From an uncultured Pseudomonadales bacterium (GTDB taxonomy: Bacteria; Pseudomonadota; Gammaproteobacteria; Pseudomonadales; Azotimanducaceae), in the NCBI GenBank assembly GCA_943787425.1, contig CALSMJ010000003.1, positions 1 through 64,000 on the forward strand: a stretch of 64,000 nt of DNA, written 5' to 3'. The first letter of the stretch is position 1. Each line of letters opens with the position of its first letter. Of this stretch, positions 1 through 7,712 are shown piece by piece. A program made the translations under genes and the position numbers. The notes under the pieces are model-generated. The model made no database searches and was not told the origin of the DNA. It worked only from the letters and a program-made list of their open reading frames with translations.

Positions 1-895
1 CTTCACCCGATGCCTCTAGCGCGTCAAGAACCTGGCCAATATGAATATCAACATCTCGAATGCAGTTGTAGTAATAGTTTCTGTAGATCCTCCATGCCTC
101 TTTATCTTCAAGAGGAAGCTTTCCGTACATAATGTCTGCCAAACGTTGATCTTCCCTGTGAGCGCTCGGCTTTTCATCTAACGAAGCCGCAAAGTTCGGA
201 GGTAAAGGTAAGTCCAACCAACCCCGATAAGGTTCAGCGAAGGGAGCGGGCAGCATGGGCGCTACGCGGACAGGGTCCAGGCGCTCTCCCGCCATGGTTC
301 CTGTCGCATCAAAGAACATGACGTCATGGGGATTAATAAAATTGACGCTGAGAAGCCAAGGCGGATCATCTTTACTTAGACCAGGTTTTCGACCACTTCG
401 ACCCAACAACCAGTTCGCGGCATCAGCTGCAATCGCCCCGTCATGCATGAATCCGTCCCACGCCAAACCATGGTGATCGCCGTCATAGGTGTACTCATTG
501 AAACCCCATGGCGCCAAGGCATCCGAGGTCACAGGAAATCGTTGTTGGTCGAAATCAATTCCATCATTGAGATGAGAGAGATGCCATTTACCCTTATAAA
601 CCGTGTAGTAACCGAGCTCGCTAAACATCGAGCCCATCGTAGGCATCGTTCTCGGTAGCTCAGGGTGAGGTGGCACATTAGGGTTAACGAACATGCGGGT
701 GTGTTGGGTGTGTTGCCCAGAATAAATGACCGATCTCGAGGGCCCGCAGGGCGTCGAGTTGACTTGGAATTTACGGAATGCCACCGAGCGAGCGAGTAAG
801 CGCTCGTGGCCCGGGAGCTCGAGCTGACTTGGAAAATCTACCCACGAATGCTCTTGATCAGTCGTGATCATGAGGATATTGAATGGCTTAGTCAC
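1..895 (-). CDS. type I sulfatase (alkaline-phosphatase superfamily), 3' end outside window
   Basis: Hydrolyses a sulfate ester; the substrate cannot be read from sequence. The first 298 codons are visible and the gene runs off the left edge. A GTG at 893-895 is chosen as start because GAGAGG lies a few bases upstream and translation gives MTKPFNILMITTDQE, the usual sulfatase N-terminus with its metal-binding Asp. Cys50 sits in CGPSR, the C-x-P-x-R motif whose Cys is oxidised to formylglycine; GKWHLS and NPHDV follow in the expected order. There is no signal peptide, so the enzyme is probably cytoplasmic, unlike the second sulfatase at 6273. It is third in a leftward operon after the TetR and dioxygenase genes (68-base gap). 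No formylglycine-generating enzyme gene lies in the window. Confidence 0.88.
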   Translation of the reverse strand, partial: MTKPFNILMITTDQEHSWVDFPSQLELPGHERLLARSVAFRKFQVNSTPCGPSRSVIYSGQHTQHTRMFVNPNVPPHPELPRTMPTMGSMFSELGYYTVYKGKWHLSHLNDGIDFDQQRFPVTSDALAPWGFNEYTYDGDHHGLAWDGFMHDGAIAADAANWLLGRSGRKPGLSKDDPPWLLSVNFINPHDVMFFDATGTMAGERLDPVRVAPMLPAPFAEPYRGWLDLPLPPNFAASLDEKPSAHREDQRLADIMYGKLPLEDKEAWRIYRNYYYNCIRDVDIHIGQVLDALEASGE

Positions 896-963
896 ACCAC
901 CCTCTCAATAAGCCTTCCTGGCCCGTTTTTGCGCTCACTACCTCTGCCTCATACAGGTTCTGA

Positions 964-1974
964 TCATGCTTTTTTCGCCATTGATCTCGCTTTCAATAGA
1001 CGAAACAGATTTTTCACGACCTTGAAGTTCCAACGGGCAATCAAGAACGCGGGCGTCGGTTCTGGCCCCCAATAATCCTTCATGTCAGCCAATTGACAGT
1101 CTTGAGCCTGGTGTTTGTTATTGAGCAGATCAGTATCGGTCCAATGCTCGTGAATCAATCCAAAAGGACTCTTCCAGTAATCAAAAATCTGCCCACCCAA
1201 TAAATGTCGCCCAATGCCCCAAACATGCTTGTAGGCGCCACCTTTGAGGTGATCATGCCCTGACATCAAGTCGTCCAAGTTACTGACTTCGAAAGCGACG
1301 TGCTGAACCCTCGTACGTTCATCAAGCGCCCACTGAAAACCAATGACATGATGATCAACATACGTTTCTGAGCGATCGAGCCGAGCGAAAATCATTTGAG
1401 GCGATTGATCGGGCAATCGAACAGCATCGGAAATCATCAATCCAAAATACTTGTGGTACCAGTCGAAGAGCCCTGCAGGGTCAGCGCTTTCCAGGACGAG
1501 ATGGCCCAAGCGCTTCACTCGAGAAGCCCCTTGCTCAATTCTCGGGAGCTCGCCCTCACGCGCCCTCAGACCATCCATATTGAAGGCATGCGGTAGCGCT
1601 GGATTCAGCGCTTCCCCGGAATTTTGACCCCAGACAACCTCAACCGTCATGCCTGCCGGATCGACTAATCGAACCAAGTAACCTCCAGCGGGATCACCGG
1701 ACGCCTCAACAGGAGACGCGCCCTCTAACCTCGATAATGTCTCGAGATCCTCATAAGACGCGGCTTCAAAAGCGATCGCTTCCACGCCCCCCCTGCCTTC
1801 ACCTAACACATAGCAGGGGGGGGCTGGGTCAGTTCCTCGATAGTAGATCCGCTCCGCTGAACGATACTGAACCTGAAGACCAAACCTTTCTAAGAAGCGC
1901 TCCGCATCCCCGAAGTCTGGCGCGCCCACACGCACGTACGCGAGCTTTTGTACTTTCGCAACCGGTTCTGTCAT
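964..1974 (-). CDS. extradiol (VOC-fold) ring-cleavage dioxygenase
   Basis: A 336-residue protein with two vicinal-oxygen-chelate domains (about 8-120 and 155-285), the layout of type I extradiol catechol dioxygenases. The likely 2-His-1-Glu iron ligands are visible at H158 (RLGHLVL), H225 (VQHVAFEV) and E276 (IHEHW), all in the C-terminal domain as in BphC and catechol 2,3-dioxygenase. The expected reaction is meta cleavage of a catechol with O2; the catechol is unknown. An ATG with GGATGAGG upstream fits as start. It lies 48 bases after the TetR stop and before the sulfatase, so it is probably co-transcribed with both, and its likely partners are the divergent monooxygenase and FAH-family hydrolase. 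Confidence 0.85.
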   Translation of the reverse strand: MTEPVAKVQKLAYVRVGAPDFGDAERFLERFGLQVQYRSAERIYYRGTDPAPPCYVLGEGRGGVEAIAFEAASYEDLETLSRLEGASPVEASGDPAGGYLVRLVDPAGMTVEVVWGQNSGEALNPALPHAFNMDGLRAREGELPRIEQGASRVKRLGHLVLESADPAGLFDWYHKYFGLMISDAVRLPDQSPQMIFARLDRSETYVDHHVIGFQWALDERTRVQHVAFEVSNLDDLMSGHDHLKGGAYKHVWGIGRHLLGGQIFDYWKSPFGLIHEHWTDTDLLNNKHQAQDCQLADMKDYWGPEPTPAFLIARWNFKVVKNLFRLLKARSMAKKA

Positions 1975-2022
1975 CGCCTCGGCTTCCTCATCCTTTGCTC
2001 GCTCGGAACGTTTCCGGCGTCA

Positions 2023-2667
2023 TCAATCAACCTCTAAATGCAGGTCAAAGACCGCCGCAACTGTCTTCTGTGCTTTTTTTGCGGGAACACCAAGCACCCT
2101 AAGCACAGCATCACAAGTATGCTTAATGGTTACATCGCACATTGCGGGATCGACCCGCCGACCCACGTTGATGAGCGCGAGTATCTGATTAATTAGCAAG
2201 AGATCTACGGTTACTGAAAAATGCCCCTGTTGTGTACCCAATTCGAGGTCCTTCCTCAGATACGCAACGGCCGAGGACTGCAGCTCTGGGACCATGAAGA
2301 CACCCTCTAACAGCACGTTAAGCCACTCCGCCTGTTGTCTAACCGTCCGAAGCAACCTCGCCGTCGCCAATGCAACACGCGTTGGCCCATGCGTAATGCT
2401 CTCCATGTCGTCATTAATCCGCTTCGTCAATTCGATGGCGAGCTCTGTGGCAACGTCACGCAGAAGCTCATCCTTTGTTTGGTAGTAGTTGTAAAAGGTG
2501 CCGTTGGCTAGCTTGGCTCGGTCGGTAATGTCCCTGATTTTGGCGCCAGAAAAACCCTTCTCTGCGAAAACGCTCACCGCGCTGTCCAACAAGACACCAC
2601 GAGTACGTTCGCGCTTCCTAGCGCCCATCGCTCTGTCTCTAAAAAGCTGAGCCTTCGCTGAGTTCAT
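2023..2667 (-). CDS. TetR-family transcriptional regulator
   Basis: A 214-residue one-component regulator. Residues about 20-66 are a TetR N-terminal helix-turn-helix: RGVLLDSAVSVFAEKGFSG, IRDITDRAKLANGTFYNYY, then TKDELLRDV. The remaining helical part is a ligand pocket with no assignable ligand. An AAGGAGG ribosome site precedes the ATG. A 14-bp perfect palindrome (2683-2696) overlaps that site and a second inverted repeat overlaps the divergent promoter, so it probably represses itself and the monooxygenase operon and is relieved by an aromatic or sulfated inducer (inference). First gene of the leftward dioxygenase-sulfatase operon. Confidence 0.9.
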   Translation of the reverse strand: MNSAKAQLFRDRAMGARKRERTRGVLLDSAVSVFAEKGFSGAKIRDITDRAKLANGTFYNYYQTKDELLRDVATELAIELTKRINDDMESITHGPTRVALATARLLRTVRQQAEWLNVLLEGVFMVPELQSSAVAYLRKDLELGTQQGHFSVTVDLLLINQILALINVGRRVDPAMCDVTIKHTCDAVLRVLGVPAKKAQKTVAAVFDLHLEVD

Positions 2668-2682
2668 AAAAGCTTGGCCTCC

Positions 2683-2696
2683 TTCCGAATTCGGAA
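2683..2696. promoter_or_regulatory. perfect 14-bp palindrome, candidate TetR operator
   Basis: TTCCGAATTCGGAA is its own reverse complement. It starts 16 bases upstream of the TetR start codon and its edge overlaps that gene's AAGGAGG ribosome site, a good position for autorepression. A related everted pair (CGGAA-CGT-TTCCG) lies at 2004-2016 between the TetR and dioxygenase genes. Binding is inferred only. Confidence 0.5.
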
Positions 2697-2710
2697 AGTT
2701 AGCGAATTAT

Positions 2711-2744
2711 TTGACAGACTGCAAGAAAATTGAGAATACTCTCA
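2711..2744 (+). promoter_or_regulatory. sigma-70 promoter with overlapping inverted repeat
   Basis: A consensus -35 TTGACA (2711-2716) is followed after 18 bases by AATACT (2735-2740), a 4/6 match to the -10. The -10 lies inside TGAGA-ATAC-TCTCA (2731-2744), an inverted repeat with perfect 5-bp arms, so a repressor bound there would block the monooxygenase operon that begins at 2781. Confidence 0.5.
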
Positions 2745-2780
2745 TTTTTTTAAACCAAACGAGTCCAGAGAAGTCCAATT

Positions 2781-4442
2781 GTGAATAACGAGAGCATGCC
2801 ACGCGTACTTATTGTCGGTGCCGGTCCTGTTGGCCAGATGGCAGCACTGCTGTTGTCTCAACATGGCATACCTAGTCTTCTCGTTGATAAGCGGACAACG
2901 CGACTCACCGCTCCAAAAGCACACGCTGTAAACGCCCGCACGCTCGAAATTTGTGACAGCATCGGGATCAGCGCATCGCAGTTGCGAGAACTTGGTTCAG
3001 CCGCAAACGAAGGCGGCATGGTCCGGTTTGTCGGGACGCTTACGGGCCCAGAGTTTGGCTCCCTGCCCTATGAAAGACAGGATGTGGGCGCGCTCGAATC
3101 CACGCCCTTCCCTCTCAGCAACATACCTCAACCTCTATTCGAACAAGTGTTGGCTCGCCATGTGACAGAGGACCCCAACATTGACTACCGGCTTGGCACG
3201 GCCTGCACCTCGCTGATCAATCAAGGAGCGCAGGTTGCAGCGAAGCTTTTAGATTCTAGAGACAAATCAAGAAGCCATTTACAGCTTTTCGATTACGCGA
3301 TTGCCGCCGACGGGGCAGGCTCGTCGATCAGGGATTCGCTCGACATTGAAATGGAGGGTCCCGAAGCGCTGGCTCACTATCTGATGATTCATTTCTCGGC
3401 TGACCTTCGAGCTTTGACCGAAAACAGAAGAGGCGTTCTGTACTTTTTATTTGAACCTGGCGTCAATGGCACGTTCATCGCCTACGATCATTCAAAAACG
3501 TGGGTTCTGATGCATCCCTGGCAACCCGGGTCGGAAAAGCTCAAGGACTATACGCAAGCGCGCTGTGCTGCTCTGATCGATAAAGCCGCAGGACAAAGCC
3601 TCAATGGCGTCACTGTAGAAAACATCAGTCCTTGGACGATGACCGCCCAGGTAGCAAAAGCGTACCGCAAGGAGCGTATCTTTCTCGCTGGCGACAGCGC
3701 GCACAGAATACCGCCAGCTGGCGGGCTGGGACTTAACTCAGGAATCGGCGACGTCCAGAACCTAAGTTGGAAGCTAGCAGCGGTGCTAAACGGACTAGCA
3801 GGCGAACGCCTTCTCGATACTTATGAAGTAGAACGCCAGCCCATTGCTCGCATCAACAACGAGCAGAGTTTGAACAATGCCATCAAGCTATTTGATCTGA
3901 TTGTTGCGCTCCATGGGGACGACCCTGAGAAGACCGGCGAGCGTTACGCGGCGATCTCGAAAAGTCCTGATGACTTCCCCGAGTTGGCAGAGGCTGTGAA
4001 AGCTCAAAAGCCCCACTTCGACAGCTTTGATCTACAAATAGGGTATCGCTACAACAGTCTGGCAATTGTCGACCCACCGCCGATACCGGATGTGGGCGAC
4101 GTGTCGGATTATCAGCCCTCGTGGGATGCGGGCGCTCACTTTCCACATCGCTGGGTAACCCAGGATGGAGAAACCCGATCACTCCATTCTCTCATTTCAC
4201 CTCGAACCTTCACGCTTCTACGCGGGCCAAAATCCGCGGAATTAAGCGGTCACTCTAAAGTTCAACAACTCCTCTTTGGTGTTGACTTTGAGGATGGGGA
4301 TGACTGGGAAATATTAACAGGACTACCCGCGAGCGGGGCCCTCCTGATTAGACCCGATGGACATATCGCCACCCGATTCAAAACCGTGAACGAGGAAGAT
4401 TTTTCGTCTGCGATCAGACAAATTTTGGCAAGAGGTGATTAA
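2781..4442 (+). CDS. FAD-dependent aromatic monooxygenase (PheA/MhpA-like)
   Basis: A 553-residue class A flavoprotein hydroxylase. Visible marks are the N-terminal dinucleotide fold (VGAGPVG, about 12-18), the DG motif near 178 (ADGAGSSIRDS), and the GD motif GDSAHRIPPAGGLGLNSGIG near 305 that binds FAD. The C-terminal part resembles the thioredoxin-like tail of phenol hydroxylases. Such enzymes use NAD(P)H and O2 to add a hydroxyl to a phenol, giving the catechol that an extradiol dioxygenase opens. First gene of a four-gene operon; the next start is 3 bases past its stop. The substrate is not readable; a role on a desulfated phenol is inferred from the flanking sulfatases. Confidence 0.85.
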   Translation: MNNESMPRVLIVGAGPVGQMAALLLSQHGIPSLLVDKRTTRLTAPKAHAVNARTLEICDSIGISASQLRELGSAANEGGMVRFVGTLTGPEFGSLPYERQDVGALESTPFPLSNIPQPLFEQVLARHVTEDPNIDYRLGTACTSLINQGAQVAAKLLDSRDKSRSHLQLFDYAIAADGAGSSIRDSLDIEMEGPEALAHYLMIHFSADLRALTENRRGVLYFLFEPGVNGTFIAYDHSKTWVLMHPWQPGSEKLKDYTQARCAALIDKAAGQSLNGVTVENISPWTMTAQVAKAYRKERIFLAGDSAHRIPPAGGLGLNSGIGDVQNLSWKLAAVLNGLAGERLLDTYEVERQPIARINNEQSLNNAIKLFDLIVALHGDDPEKTGERYAAISKSPDDFPELAEAVKAQKPHFDSFDLQIGYRYNSLAIVDPPPIPDVGDVSDYQPSWDAGAHFPHRWVTQDGETRSLHSLISPRTFTLLRGPKSAELSGHSKVQQLLFGVDFEDGDDWEILTGLPASGALLIRPDGHIATRFKTVNEEDFSSAIRQILARGD

Positions 4443-4444
4443 GC

Positions 4445-5224
4445 ATGGATTTAGGAATCGAGGGAAGAAAAGCGATTGTCTGCGCCTCATCACGGGGTCT
4501 GGGTAAAGCCTGCGCACTGTCGCTCGCTCGGGAGGGCGCGCATGTCGTAATCAACGGCCTAAACGTTGAGCGTTTAGAAGCCACCAAAGTTGAAATCGAA
4601 TCAATAGCGAAAGGATCTGTGACCGCCGTCGCTGCAGATATCAACACCGAGGATGGCAGAACAAAGCTACTGCAGGCTTGTCCTAAGATTGACATCCTCG
4701 TGAACAACAACGAGGGCCCTCCTCCCGGTCAGTTCCAAAAATGGCAACGCCAGGATTTTGAATCTGCGATCGACGCCAACTTCATGGCGCCTGCGTTGTT
4801 AATTCAAGCGGTGATCGAGGGCATGAAAGAGCGCAGGTTTGGGCGCATCGTGAATATCACTTCAGCCATGGTGAAATCGCCTCGAAGCGCGATGGGACTC
4901 TCGACCTCTGCAAGAACCGCGCTTACCGCTCTATGCAAGGGGATCTCGGTTGATCTCGCGCCTTTCAATATCACAATCAACAACATGCTTCCCGAGCGTT
5001 TCGATACAGACCGTCAGAAATTTATGGCTGAAATGGTCATGAAGTTAAAAGGCATCTCTCGCGAAGAAGCCTTCGCGGAAATTCATGAATCAATCGCAGC
5101 AAAACGGATGGGGTCACCCACAGAATTTGGAGATGCCTGCGCATTTCTTTGCAGCGCTCAAGCAGGCTACATCTCAGGCCAAAATCTCCAATTGGATGGT
5201 GGTTCCTATCCAGGCTTAATTTAG
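4445..5224 (+). CDS. atypical short-chain dehydrogenase/reductase (SDR)
   Basis: A 259-residue Rossmann-fold protein of SDR length. The cofactor motif is present in variant form (ASSRGLGKA near 15-23), as are NNN in place of NNAG (ILVNNNEGPP) and the C-terminal SGQNLQLDGG. The active site is altered: after the catalytic Ser of NITS, the positions normally held by Tyr and Lys are Ser and Arg (MGLSTSARTAL). SDR subfamilies with an xxGAR-type sequence here are known and are often called 3-oxoacyl-ACP reductase-like, but their chemistry is unclear. GAGGTG precedes the ATG, which follows the monooxygenase stop by 2 bases, indicating coupled translation. Confidence 0.82.
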   Translation: MDLGIEGRKAIVCASSRGLGKACALSLAREGAHVVINGLNVERLEATKVEIESIAKGSVTAVAADINTEDGRTKLLQACPKIDILVNNNEGPPPGQFQKWQRQDFESAIDANFMAPALLIQAVIEGMKERRFGRIVNITSAMVKSPRSAMGLSTSARTALTALCKGISVDLAPFNITINNMLPERFDTDRQKFMAEMVMKLKGISREEAFAEIHESIAAKRMGSPTEFGDACAFLCSAQAGYISGQNLQLDGGSYPGLI

Positions 5225-5234
5225 GGCGCTTTCT

Positions 5235-6269
5235 ATGAGACTCGCCTTTTGCTCGATTCTCCTTCTCGCCCTGGCGTTTGTCTTGTTGAGTTATTACGTT
5301 TCGCAACCTCTCAAGGAAGGCCGGCGGGTCGACTTTAAGCCCATCATCGCTGATCGAGACATCGCGCTAACGTTTGCGCGGTCACCACTGGGTTTAATTT
5401 TGGTGACAGAGCACTTGGGTGATGCCATCAGAGGGATTAATCTCTCCGCCTCGTACGGTGAAGAGCAAACTAAAGACCTCATTAATTTTCTCGCCCTAAC
5501 CGACCGCGATGTTTTGATCGCTTTAGATGCCGCCGAAGAGCGGTTTGATCTTAATTCTCTGATCATGCCAATCAGTTACTCACCGCCCTCGATCGCAGCG
5601 GGAACCAATTTCAAGGAACACGCGGATGAAGTTTATTCGGAGGATCCGCCGTTTCTCTTCCCAAAAATCACGCCTGCCAGCAACTGGAATGCGAACGTGC
5701 CCTTCCTGCCAAGACTCGATTACGAGGCTGAGTTGTGCCTTTTTCCGTTGTCGGACATCACGACAGAACGCCAAACAGCTGAATTCGGATTGGTTCTTTG
5801 TAACGATTTCACAGACCGCTTAACGCTCATCCGGGAGATCGACCTTGGGGCCCCGTTGGGGTTAACGGGCTTTGCATCAGGCAAAGGGTGTGAGGGCTGT
5901 CTGCCCACTGGCTACCTTGCTGTGATTCCGCAATCTGAAACATTTTATCTATCTGTAGAGCTGACTTTGTTCGTCAACGACGAACTGAGACAGTCATTCA
6001 GGATGCGGGACATCATCATGCCCATAGAAGACATCGTAGATCAGGCACTTCACTCACATGGGACTCAATACACAAAAGGAAAGGACCAAATTCCACTCAT
6101 GCCCGGCGAAACCATTTCACAAGGCACGTTGATCCTTACCGGCACAGCGGCCGGCGTTCTATTTAAGCCGCTGAACATCTGGAATCAGAGTTTTTATCTT
6201 CAACCAGGGGACGATGTCCGAACGGAAGCGACCTTCCTGGGCCACCTCGAAAATAAAATTGTGGACTAG
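5235..6269 (+). CDS. FAH-family hydrolase with N-terminal membrane anchor
   Basis: A 344-residue protein whose C-terminal two thirds match the fumarylacetoacetate hydrolase fold: AAGTNFKEHADEV, the acidic metal ligands in LDYEAELCLF, NDFTDR, and the late segments PGETISQGTLILTGTAAG and LQPGDDV. Family members hydrolyse C-C bonds of beta-diketo or meta-cleavage products or decarboxylate them. Unusually, residues about 4-23 (LAFCSILLLALAFVLLSYYV) are a membrane helix, which would place the enzyme at the periplasmic face. It starts 10 bases after the SDR and ends 3 bases before the sulfatase. Expected role: cleavage of the dioxygenase product; the anchor complicates that because the dioxygenase looks cytoplasmic. 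Confidence 0.8.
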   Translation: MRLAFCSILLLALAFVLLSYYVSQPLKEGRRVDFKPIIADRDIALTFARSPLGLILVTEHLGDAIRGINLSASYGEEQTKDLINFLALTDRDVLIALDAAEERFDLNSLIMPISYSPPSIAAGTNFKEHADEVYSEDPPFLFPKITPASNWNANVPFLPRLDYEAELCLFPLSDITTERQTAEFGLVLCNDFTDRLTLIREIDLGAPLGLTGFASGKGCEGCLPTGYLAVIPQSETFYLSVELTLFVNDELRQSFRMRDIIMPIEDIVDQALHSHGTQYTKGKDQIPLMPGETISQGTLILTGTAAGVLFKPLNIWNQSFYLQPGDDVRTEATFLGHLENKIVD

Positions 6270-6272
6270 CCC

Positions 6273-7712
6273 ATGAGAGCCCTGCTGCTTCTTTTTTTAT
6301 TTTTCGCATCGTTCGCACAGGCCGAGCTTCCTAACATTATTCTGCTCGTAGCAGATGACCTGGGCTGGAAAGATGTTGGTTACAACGGCAGCGAAATCCG
6401 AACGCCTTCAATCGATGCGCTTGCTGAAGGTGGTGTGACCTTAACTGACTTCTACGTGCACGCAACGTGCAGTCCCACCCGTGCCTCACTGATGACCGGA
6501 CAATCCCCTATGCGCCACGGTATTTACCATGCGATTGGTAAAAACACGGAGGGAAGCCTGCCACTACAGCTCAAACTTTTGCCGGAATATCTCAAGGATG
6601 CTGGGTATCAATCGCTGATGGTTGGCAAGTGGCACCTCGGTCACGCCACCTCAGCAATGCTACCGATGGCCAGAGGATTTGAAGAGGTCTATGGACACTA
6701 CACCGGTGGGGTTGGCTACTGGGACCACGTCCATGGTGGCGGCCTCGACTGGCATTACGACGGGAGAGCCCTGCGAGTCGAGGGTTATGCGACGCATTTG
6801 CAGGCGGATGCCGCCGTGCGAATGATTAAAAAAAGAGACAAGCAAAGACCGCTCTTCCTCTATACGGCCTTCAGTGCACCACATCTACCCAATGAAGCTC
6901 CCGAGGAGAGTATCGCCGCATACGTTGGAATAGAAGATGCGAACCGACTTGTTCACGCCGCGATGGTTGATGAACTCGACCGGGCCATTGGCCGAATCCT
7001 GACAATCCTCGAAGAAGAAAAAATGTTGGAGAACACACTGATCTGGTTCTTTAGTGATAACGGTGGTCTGAATCCTGCTGCTGCGAGCGATGGCATGCGG
7101 AGTCTTGTCTCTAACCTCGTTGCTATTTTTGGGCGACCACTGCCAACCGGATTCCTTGAATTCCTGCGTCATAATACTGAGGACGGTGGCTCAGATAATG
7201 GGCCCTACCGGCGCGGTAAAGGTGCGGTATATCAGGGAGGGATTCTGGTGCCATCGATTCTGTATTGGCCAGCCGTCCTCGAGCCTGCCACTATCGCTGA
7301 CCGTGTCACCATCCAGGATGTGTTACCGACAATCGCTCAACTGACCGATATCAACCTGATACCCGAGCAGGTGCTTGATGGTAAACCGCGCTGGGGAATC
7401 ATAACGGGTGCCGACAGCGAAGCAGGCGCAGACTTTGTGGCTTTGAGCATGGATAGTAAGGCAATCCTACGCGGACCTTGGAAACTTATTGTCAACGGCG
7501 AGGAAGGCGAGCTGTATAACCTTGCTGAGGATCCTTACGAACAAACTGATCGCTCCGTAGAACACCCAGAAATCGTCGAACAACTACGTTCTGCGATCAA
7601 TCAGATTCCACAGGTCGAATCGATCAACCAGCCACTCTTTAAGGTCATGATGGATATGGACAAATTTGGAGGAGAGGAGGATCGCCCCCCCTGGGCAGAT
7701 GTCGTTCAGTAG
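6273..7712 (+). CDS. secreted type I sulfatase (arylsulfatase-like)
   Basis: A 479-residue sulfatase with a clear signal peptide (MRALLLLFLFFASFAQA) and a mature start at about ELPNII. Metal ligands DD at 28-29 (ADDLGW), formylglycine site Cys66 in CSPTR, GKWHLGH near 119 and the FFSDNGG metal site near 261 occur in the order of arylsulfatases A/B. It should act in the periplasm or outside. It is last in the rightward operon, 3 bases after the FAH-family stop, and convergent with the MarR-type gene. It and the leftward cytoplasmic sulfatase differ in the motif (CSPTR against CGPSR), so they are not recent duplicates. Confidence 0.9.
   Translation: MRALLLLFLFFASFAQAELPNIILLVADDLGWKDVGYNGSEIRTPSIDALAEGGVTLTDFYVHATCSPTRASLMTGQSPMRHGIYHAIGKNTEGSLPLQLKLLPEYLKDAGYQSLMVGKWHLGHATSAMLPMARGFEEVYGHYTGGVGYWDHVHGGGLDWHYDGRALRVEGYATHLQADAAVRMIKKRDKQRPLFLYTAFSAPHLPNEAPEESIAAYVGIEDANRLVHAAMVDELDRAIGRILTILEEEKMLENTLIWFFSDNGGLNPAAASDGMRSLVSNLVAIFGRPLPTGFLEFLRHNTEDGGSDNGPYRRGKGAVYQGGILVPSILYWPAVLEPATIADRVTIQDVLPTIAQLTDINLIPEQVLDGKPRWGIITGADSEAGADFVALSMDSKAILRGPWKLIVNGEEGELYNLAEDPYEQTDRSVEHPEIVEQLRSAINQIPQVESINQPLFKVMMDMDKFGGEEDRPPWADVVQ

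Follow-up and report, generated by a model that had tools for sequence, protein, structure and literature searches.

Recurrent placement of sulfatase genes beside extradiol ring-cleavage genes in a gammaproteobacterial family

The presence of two different sulfatase genes around a set of ring-cleavage genes raises the question of whether desulfation and aromatic ring cleavage are joined in one system, as a sequence-only reading of this locus had proposed. Seagrasses, algae and marine animals are reported to contain sulfated phenolics such as zosteric acid, sulfated flavonoids and sulfated coumarins, and the gammaproteobacterial group of the host is probably marine. A full-text literature search found, within the text that it covered, no description of a gene cluster joining desulfation to ring cleavage. 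In a study of SAR86, ring-cleavage dioxygenases and arylsulfatases were reported from the same marine bacteria, and in the available text of that study sulfolipids are taken to be the substrates of the sulfatases (PMC11582366). The window, which is the whole 64,000-nucleotide stretch analysed here (G000:C3:1-64000), begins at a contig end, and carries the following features.

2..895, minus strand: type I (formylglycine-type) sulfatase with CGPSR, N-terminus not signal-like, truncated by the contig end
964..1974, minus strand: two-domain VOC extradiol dioxygenase with H158/H225/E276 (Pfam VOC/extradiol)
2023..2667, minus strand: TetR-family regulator (Pfam), probably heading the left operon
2711..2744, plus strand: right-operon promoter region with the candidate TetR operator, conserved across loci
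2711-2716, plus strand: TTGACA element of the right-operon promoter, conserved
2721-2729, plus strand: GCAAGAAAA element of the right-operon promoter, conserved
2731-2744, plus strand: inverted repeat TGAG-N6-CTCA, candidate TetR operator, conserved
2781..4442, plus strand: FAD aromatic hydroxylase (Pfam FAD_binding_3 and Rng_hyd_C)
4445..5224, plus strand: short-chain dehydrogenase/reductase, SDR (Pfam)
5235..6269, plus strand: FAH-family protein with a conserved N-terminal hydrophobic stretch (Pfam FAA_hydrolase)
6273..7712, plus strand: sulfatase with CSPTR and a signal-like N-terminus (Pfam)

All seven protein-coding genes named by the sequence-only reading were recovered as open frames with matching Pfam families (ORF list and Pfam scan), and both the CGPSR and the CSPTR motif were found. 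The two operons are divergent as had been described, but the TetR gene, which had been placed between them, shares its strand with the left genes. A comparison of gene order with other genomes, proposed in the same reading, found the divergent-operon order kept in orthologous loci of related genomes and recurring across species. The promoter and the TGAG-N6-CTCA repeat between the operons are likewise conserved in related genomes; since 0.9 matches to the repeat pattern are expected by chance in the window, the repeat alone would be a likely chance match, and it is the conservation across loci that carries the evidence.

The contig end at the start of the window truncates the CGPSR sulfatase, which is complete on contig C7 of the same genome (545 aa, L022:12066-13703), where the left operon continues with genes for a further FAH-family hydrolase, a small VOC protein and a GST. 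The opening 5,947 bp of the window recur in full on contig C7 (2 mismatches), and two real cluster copies were considered; an assembly overlap was preferred because another contig (L038), carrying a 99.7% identical cluster, runs across the C3/C7 junction, leaving a true duplication of the cluster a small residual probability.

The dioxygenase bears H158, H225 and E276, which we take to be the 2-His-1-carboxylate metal site of type I extradiol dioxygenases, at exactly the residue numbers given earlier, and these are invariant in 16 aligned rows including that of the window, bearing out the claim of an intact triad. Its AlphaFold model (mean pLDDT 76.3) gave 235 PDB matches in Foldseek at E <= 0.001, headed by 3b59, LapB, XylE and AphC, and the predicted structure has the two-domain VOC fold of XylE/BphC. 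The best solved chain for the FAD hydroxylase was 8fhj, an unspecified monooxygenase, followed by 2,4-dichlorophenol 6-monooxygenase and 2-hydroxybiphenyl 3-monooxygenase. The SDR is a steady partner of the core, with 56-62% identity even at distant dioxygenase loci. The hydrophobic stretch of the right-hand FAH protein is, judging from its sequence, a probable membrane anchor; the model of this protein (mean pLDDT 45.6, 7 sequences) was excluded from the fold search.

The gene set had been thought unfamiliar as a pathway, a view that has to be given up for its core, where FAD hydroxylase, extradiol dioxygenase and FAH-type hydrolase stand in one cluster as in the known dnt and mhq systems and, in part, in fde and ifc. 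DntB is FAD-dependent, and DntG and the trioxo-acid hydrolase belong to the FAH family. The dnt pathway for 2,4-dinitrotoluene includes an FAD-type monooxygenase step, a trihydroxytoluene oxygenase and a bifunctional isomerase/hydrolase, and mhq leads from methylhydroquinone through trihydroxytoluene to 2,4,6-trioxoheptanoate (PMC10602510, PMC8571283). These lower pathways resemble the core of the cluster by gene content and description, not by DntD or MhqB sequence, and the available text of the same two papers names no sulfatase, SDR, membrane FAH protein or GST, unlike the present cluster. The fde (naringenin) and ifc (isoflavone) pathways use an FAD monooxygenase for hydroxylation at position 8 and a glyoxalase-type dioxygenase for opening of the A-ring (PMC11069340, PMC11303751), a pair of enzyme types also present here; the likeness is again one of description, not of FdeC or IfcB sequence, and no sulfatase is named in the available text on these pathways. 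IfcD1 and IfcD2 are cupins, whereas no cupin match was observed in a scan of 19 proteins from the cluster and its flanks, and flavonoid sulfates were not adopted as the specific substrate of a cluster without a cupin gene. The distinguishing features of the cluster are its built-in sulfatases and the FAH protein with the putative membrane anchor.

Sulfatase-dioxygenase adjacency is commoner than chance in the window's family, where a sulfatase lies within 10 kb at 18 of the 44 dioxygenase-homologue places against 2.6-5.2 expected, although these places are related by descent and the chance figures therefore overstate the certainty; the other 26 places have no sulfatase within reach. In the dioxygenase tree (72 rows, some of those scored sulfatase-free coming from short contigs; L029, L052, L055, L056, L058 and L059 were not included, and L062 gave no match), the sulfatase-linked dioxygenases fall on several distinct branches. 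In the window's own clade of 15 rows, a sulfatase is in the locus in 10, and none is visible in L048 and L050. Outside the family, TetR/FAD hydroxylase/VOC/FAH clusters found elsewhere in the order and on Burkholderia-type plasmids have the core in common, often beside a TetR gene, with dioxygenases 33-43% identical to that of the window; unlike the present cluster, they have a sulfatase at 0/13 loci from the order's other families (for most of which some 9 kb on either side was covered; a raw count unscaled for the sulfatase density of those genomes), and none is annotated in 5/5 dioxygenase-centred plasmid regions, for which the gene table is incomplete. In a sample of the class, the dioxygenase was matched in 3 of 368 other genomes, at 30-34% identity.

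Viewed from the sulfatase side, a secreted-type match and a dioxygenase homologue lie on the same contig within 10 kb in 16 of the 23 genomes with such a match. The commonest families around 19 secreted-type loci (139 ORFs) are of ring-cleavage type, namely VOC (13), FAD_binding_3 (12), GST (12), TetR (12) and FAA_hydrolase (11), and no glycoside hydrolase or lyase, the neighbours that mark a polysaccharide utilisation locus, appears in the top 25 of the 104 families. Conserved order, recurrence and neighbour families together support the view that the sulfatases and the ring-cleavage genes belong together. In one further genome (G269, L201), which is not counted among the 18, the secreted sulfatase was observed with the hydroxylase, SDR and membrane FAH protein, and the dioxygenase-like ORF shows 28% identity and no Pfam match at 1e-5.

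The labels cytoplasmic and secreted come from reading the sulfatase N-termini. The C-x-P-x-R motif is kept in 21/22 secreted-type and 8/8 cytoplasmic-type rows, and the other sulfatase motifs searched are present in most rows and absent from some. The search of the window genome (93.66% complete) found neither a formylglycine-generating enzyme of canonical type nor an anaerobic maturase, and no TIGR03942 match; PF03781 is matched once, by a 699-aa frame that lacks the C-terminal cysteine motif expected in a formylglycine-generating enzyme. The best matches of the secreted sulfatase are S1 formylglycine sulfatases, namely carrageenan sulfatases labelled S1_19 from entry names and PMC5066984, and GalNAc-4-sulfatase, but its neighbourhood is aromatic instead of polysaccharide. 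Membership of PF00884 or the name arylsulfatase is no proof of an aryl substrate (PMC5066984), and because of this nearness to carrageenan and GalNAc-4-sulfate sulfatases the proposed sulfated-aromatic pathway stands as to the association with ring-cleavage genes and not as to aryl sulfate as worded. The same nearness favours a reading in which the sulfatases remove sulfate from the sugar moiety of a sulfated phenolic glycoside, whose aglycone then enters ring cleavage, as does a GH1 beta-glucosidase-type gene fragment directly after the secreted sulfatase in L039; this alternative is unlikely, as the GH1 gene was seen at that one locus only and glycoside hydrolases are missing from the 25 commonest neighbour families.

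The cytoplasmic type was rejected as exclusive to the pathway, being away from any dioxygenase gene and beside unrelated genes in 5 of the 7 further genomes matching it at 66-77% (the contig in G364, which is among the five, is 3.6 kb long). It adjoins a second, different dioxygenase cluster in L116. On a Skermanella plasmid, the neighbours of a distant relative are genes for sulfatases and formylglycine enzymes instead of ring-cleavage genes. The occurrence of the cytoplasmic type elsewhere, the resemblance of the secreted type to polysaccharide sulfatases and the abundance of sulfatases in the window genome (12 PF00884 matches, about 10 distinct genes) would also fit sulfur or polysaccharide scavenging with an accidental placement near ring-cleavage genes, which is nevertheless quite improbable in view of the excess over chance and the conserved operon order, and given that only two of the roughly 10 sulfatases, both in the cluster, adjoin the one dioxygenase homologue of this genome. 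A sulfonation/desulfation cycle for detoxification or storage, in which a PAPS sulfotransferase would form the sulfate ester, is more improbable still: Sulfotransfer_1 genes lie near the clusters in L043 and L116, but in these 2 loci only, and 0/5 Sulfotransfer_1 matches of the window genome are on cluster contigs.

The best reading, which we hold to be moderately probable, is a regulated catabolic cluster for a phenolic that arrives as a sulfate ester and undergoes desulfation, then ring cleavage, gene neighbourhood being the sole basis for assigning both to the same compound. We infer the following scheme: the secreted sulfatase, the cytoplasmic one or both would remove the sulfate to give a free phenol OH, the FAD hydroxylase would add a neighbouring OH, and the dioxygenase would open the ring; the GST-like protein may isomerise the product, which the cytoplasmic FAH-family hydrolase would cut, by analogy with the dnt/mhq pathways for trihydroxy rings; the SDR may reduce or oxidise an intermediate, perhaps a quinone; and TetR, acting at the shared region, would repress both operons until bound by an intermediate. 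Sulfates of estrogen and other steroids, and bromophenol sulfates, were also considered as substrates. More tentatively, and with somewhat less than an even chance, members of the family may have combined one type of sulfatase with different extradiol clusters more than once, giving a dedicated system for consuming sulfated aromatic natural products that in the window's lineage would include an FAH-family enzyme facing the periplasm, next to the secreted sulfatase.

What is new here is that sulfatases lie near dioxygenase homologues beyond chance, in several separate branches of the tree. This recurrent pairing suggests a possible route for the consumption of sulfated phenolics, and it provides specific genes for testing, along with a marker for searching other genomes.

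The seven genes that the sequence-only reading had assigned to the divergent cluster proved to be open frames of the families it named, in a window that begins at a contig end. Contig C7 of the same genome (locus L022) ends in a 5,947 bp stretch (L022:12809-18755) that matches window positions 1-5947 with two mismatches, at 665 and 2395, and C7 and the window's contig C3 probably join at this end-to-end overlap. The features concerned are as follows.

Window, minus strand: CGPSR sulfatase 2-895 (cytoplasmic type), extradiol dioxygenase 964-1974, TetR 2023-2667
Window 2711-2744: conserved promoter stretch, terminating in TGAG-N6-CTCA
Window, plus strand: FAD hydroxylase 2781-4442, SDR 4445-5224, membrane FAH 5235-6269, secreted CSPTR sulfatase 6273-7712
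Contig C7: complete form of the CGPSR sulfatase, 545 aa
Contig C7, downstream of the CGPSR sulfatase: cytoplasmic FAH-family hydrolase, 322 aa
Contig C7, downstream of the CGPSR sulfatase: GST-like protein, 281 aa
Contig C7, downstream of the CGPSR sulfatase: one-domain VOC protein, 181 aa
Contig C7, L022:4487-7194: molybdenum hydroxylase genes (MoCoBD subunit by Pfam)

The C7 genes, together with the unbroken gene set on locus L038 (contig titled Gammaproteobacteria bacterium UBA4475, 99.7% nucleotide identity), suggest from orientation and spacing a left operon of TetR - dioxygenase - sulfatase - FAH - GST - VOC, and the right operon would comprise FAD hydroxylase - SDR - membrane FAH - secreted sulfatase. 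No cluster protein had an NCBIfam match above cut-off among the matches listed (best 25 per protein at most), so known equivalogs supply no specific function for any of them. On C7 a small iron-sulfur-type subunit, recognized only by reading the sequence, stands ahead of the MoCoBD subunit. Over 11.4 kb, the cluster of the window genome and that of G319, which is coded as another genus, share 99.7% identity (window 1-7699 plus L022:9109-18755 against L038), and another gene compared between the two genomes diverges widely; the near-identity may reflect either a recent transfer or a mis-binned contig.

The dioxygenase scan of genome contigs returned 22 loci, with L038 alone 99% identical and 12 loci at 51-67% dioxygenase identity, titled Gammaproteobacteria, Pseudomonadales, Cellvibrionales, Halieaceae or Proteobacteria (n = 10), Myxococcota (n = 1) and Deltaproteobacteria (n = 1); to judge by kinship, the group that carries the cluster is probably marine. 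The gene order, which the earlier reading proposed to seek in other genomes, recurs among these loci. In L038, L039, L040, L045 and L046 the secreted sulfatase comes after the membrane FAH gene (as a fragment in L046). In L043 it comes after the SDR gene, L041 and L112 have it ahead of the dioxygenase, and the L042 cluster has the cytoplasmic-type sulfatase without the secreted type. Sulfatases accompany 10 of the 15 rows of the window's dioxygenase clade; three of the other five rows (L044, L049 of G260 and L047 of G350) have a contig end near on at least one side, and L048 and L050 show no sulfatase. The distant loci L051, L053, L054 and L056-L058, titled Deltaproteobacteria, actinobacteria or, oddly, Bifidobacterium breve, retain the dioxygenase, SDR and FAD hydroxylase, and a sulfatase HMM scan of them found no sulfatase. 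Other neighbors were also observed, such as an RPE65-family (carotenoid oxygenase type) gene just beyond the cytoplasmic sulfatase (L042:15167-16582); a GH1 beta-glucosidase-type gene fragment immediately 3' of the secreted sulfatase (L039:1-1098); and Sulfotransfer_1 (PAPS sulfotransferase-type) genes near sulfatase/dioxygenase clusters (L043:3970-4908 and L116:5619-6527). L116 is a second, diverged dioxygenase-SDR-hydroxylase-FAH cluster of G264 with an adjoining, divergent sulfatase of the cytoplasmic type.

In the window's family, 40 of 206 genomes carry a dioxygenase homologue (E <= 1e-20), giving 45 rows at 44 places (an overlapping contig end counted once). An HMM derived from six of the window genome's own sulfatases placed a sulfatase within 10 kb at 18 of the 44 and within 5 kb at 17, compared with 0 of 13 places in the order's other families, most of them flanked by about 9 kb of sequence both ways (18/44 vs 0/13, Fisher p = 0.003 on raw counts, not scaled to the sulfatase density of the other-family genomes). 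Chance would yield 2.6 to 5.2 places, as estimated from a 603 kb searchable span and first-look sulfatase counts of 23 genomes (candidates, not confirmed genes); without the window clade, 11 of 35 places were observed against 2.1 to 4.2 expected. The Poisson probabilities, 4e-10 to 9e-6 for all places and 0.004 without the window clade at the highest density, treat the places as independent, yet the genomes are related. Where the locus includes an FAD hydroxylase homologue, a sulfatase is present at 16 of 23 places. Secreted-sulfatase matches (E <= 1e-70) occur in 23 of the 206 genomes: 16 have a dioxygenase homologue on the same contig within 10 kb; G284, G316 and G304 have both on separate contigs; and G269, G369, G299 and G291 have no dioxygenase match at E <= 1e-20. 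The unlinked secreted sulfatases of G299 and G291 adjoin flavin monooxygenases, and that of G304 adjoins DSBA-type and GST genes. Pfam families were tallied for 19 of the 23 genomes, leaving out the closest (the window genome G000, G319, G264 and G258): the 139 ORFs lying no more than 5 kb from the secreted sulfatase included Glyoxalase/VOC (13), FAD_binding_3 (12), GST_N_3 (12), TetR_N (12), FAA_hydrolase (11), SDR (6) and Rng_hyd_C (5), with no glycoside hydrolase or lyase family in the 25 commonest of 104 Pfam families.

In a quick dioxygenase tree of 72 rows, sulfatase-linked rows were located in the window clade; the G356/G289/G323 clade; the G301/G297 pair; a clade with G285, G290, G311, G312 and G292, where 5 of 10 rows are linked; the single row of G264's second cluster (L116); and G269, a short row on a long branch. 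The sulfatase label requires a minimum of 10 changes, gain and loss being indistinguishable; some long rows are uncertain, and a program warning flagged long branches that meet at G269 and at the second copy of G264. All 26 secreted-type sulfatases, themselves picked by similarity, group apart from five other sulfatases of the window genome (SH-aLRT 97).

The H158/H225/E276 triad claimed for the dioxygenase holds with exact residue numbers and is invariant across 16 aligned rows, the window's included. The dioxygenase's AlphaFold model (mean pLDDT 76.3) resembles solved extradiol dioxygenases: of 235 structure matches at E <= 0.001, the top ones are 3b59, LapB, XylE and AphC. Dioxygenase homologues are present on 161 plasmid records, and the best plasmid match of the membrane FAH protein is 31.9% identical. 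In that protein a hydrophobic stretch precedes the FAH domain in all seven aligned rows (window and six loci), and the charges flanking the stretch in relatives, ambiguous in the window, suggest a periplasmic domain. Between the divergent operons, TTGACA, GCAAGAAAA and TGAG are invariant columns in seven aligned sequences (window and six loci), and several other loci have two tandem TGAG-N6-CTCA-type repeats, some imperfect. The repeat occupies the expected position of a -10 element, consistent with repression through this candidate operator by the TetR protein of the cluster; the pattern alone has a chance expectation of 0.9 in the window.

The CxPxR motif is conserved in all 8 cytoplasmic-type rows and in 21 of the 22 secreted-type ones, and the other sulfatase motifs searched are retained in most rows and missing in some. 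The best solved-chain matches of the secreted sulfatase are carrageenan and GalNAc-4-sulfate sulfatases; those of the cytoplasmic type are weak and mostly partial. Besides near-identical G319, seven genomes carry the cytoplasmic type at 66-77%, adjoining a dioxygenase cluster in two (G304 and G264:C32, L116) and away from one in five, and on a Skermanella plasmid a distant relative adjoins an arylsulfatase and a formylglycine-enzyme gene. The 12 PF00884 matches in the window genome represent about 10 separate sulfatase genes. The genome's sole PF03781 match is without the cysteines that a formylglycine-generating enzyme should have, a TIGR03942 search gave no match, and neither a canonical enzyme nor an anaerobic maturase was found by these two models; the expected cysteines are likewise absent from FGE-domain tails at five relatives' loci (L133, L134, L137, L144 and L146).

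FAD hydroxylases of this family hydroxylate beside a phenol OH, extradiol dioxygenases cleave the ring, FAH-family enzymes cleave 1,3-diketone-type acids, and GST-type isomerases precede FAH-family enzymes in gentisate-like routes. The FAH and GST-isomerase roles make a trihydroxy ring the most likely cleavage substrate. Such rings are cleaved in the methylhydroquinone (mhq) and 2,4-dinitrotoluene (dnt) lower pathways (PMC10602510, PMC8571283). None of five plasmid dioxygenase regions examined has an annotated sulfatase in a gene table that is incomplete, and the open-licence papers searched yielded no description of the sulfatase-bearing form. The core of the cluster is already known in kind; the sulfatases would unmask one OH of the ring, or strip sulfate from an attached sugar.
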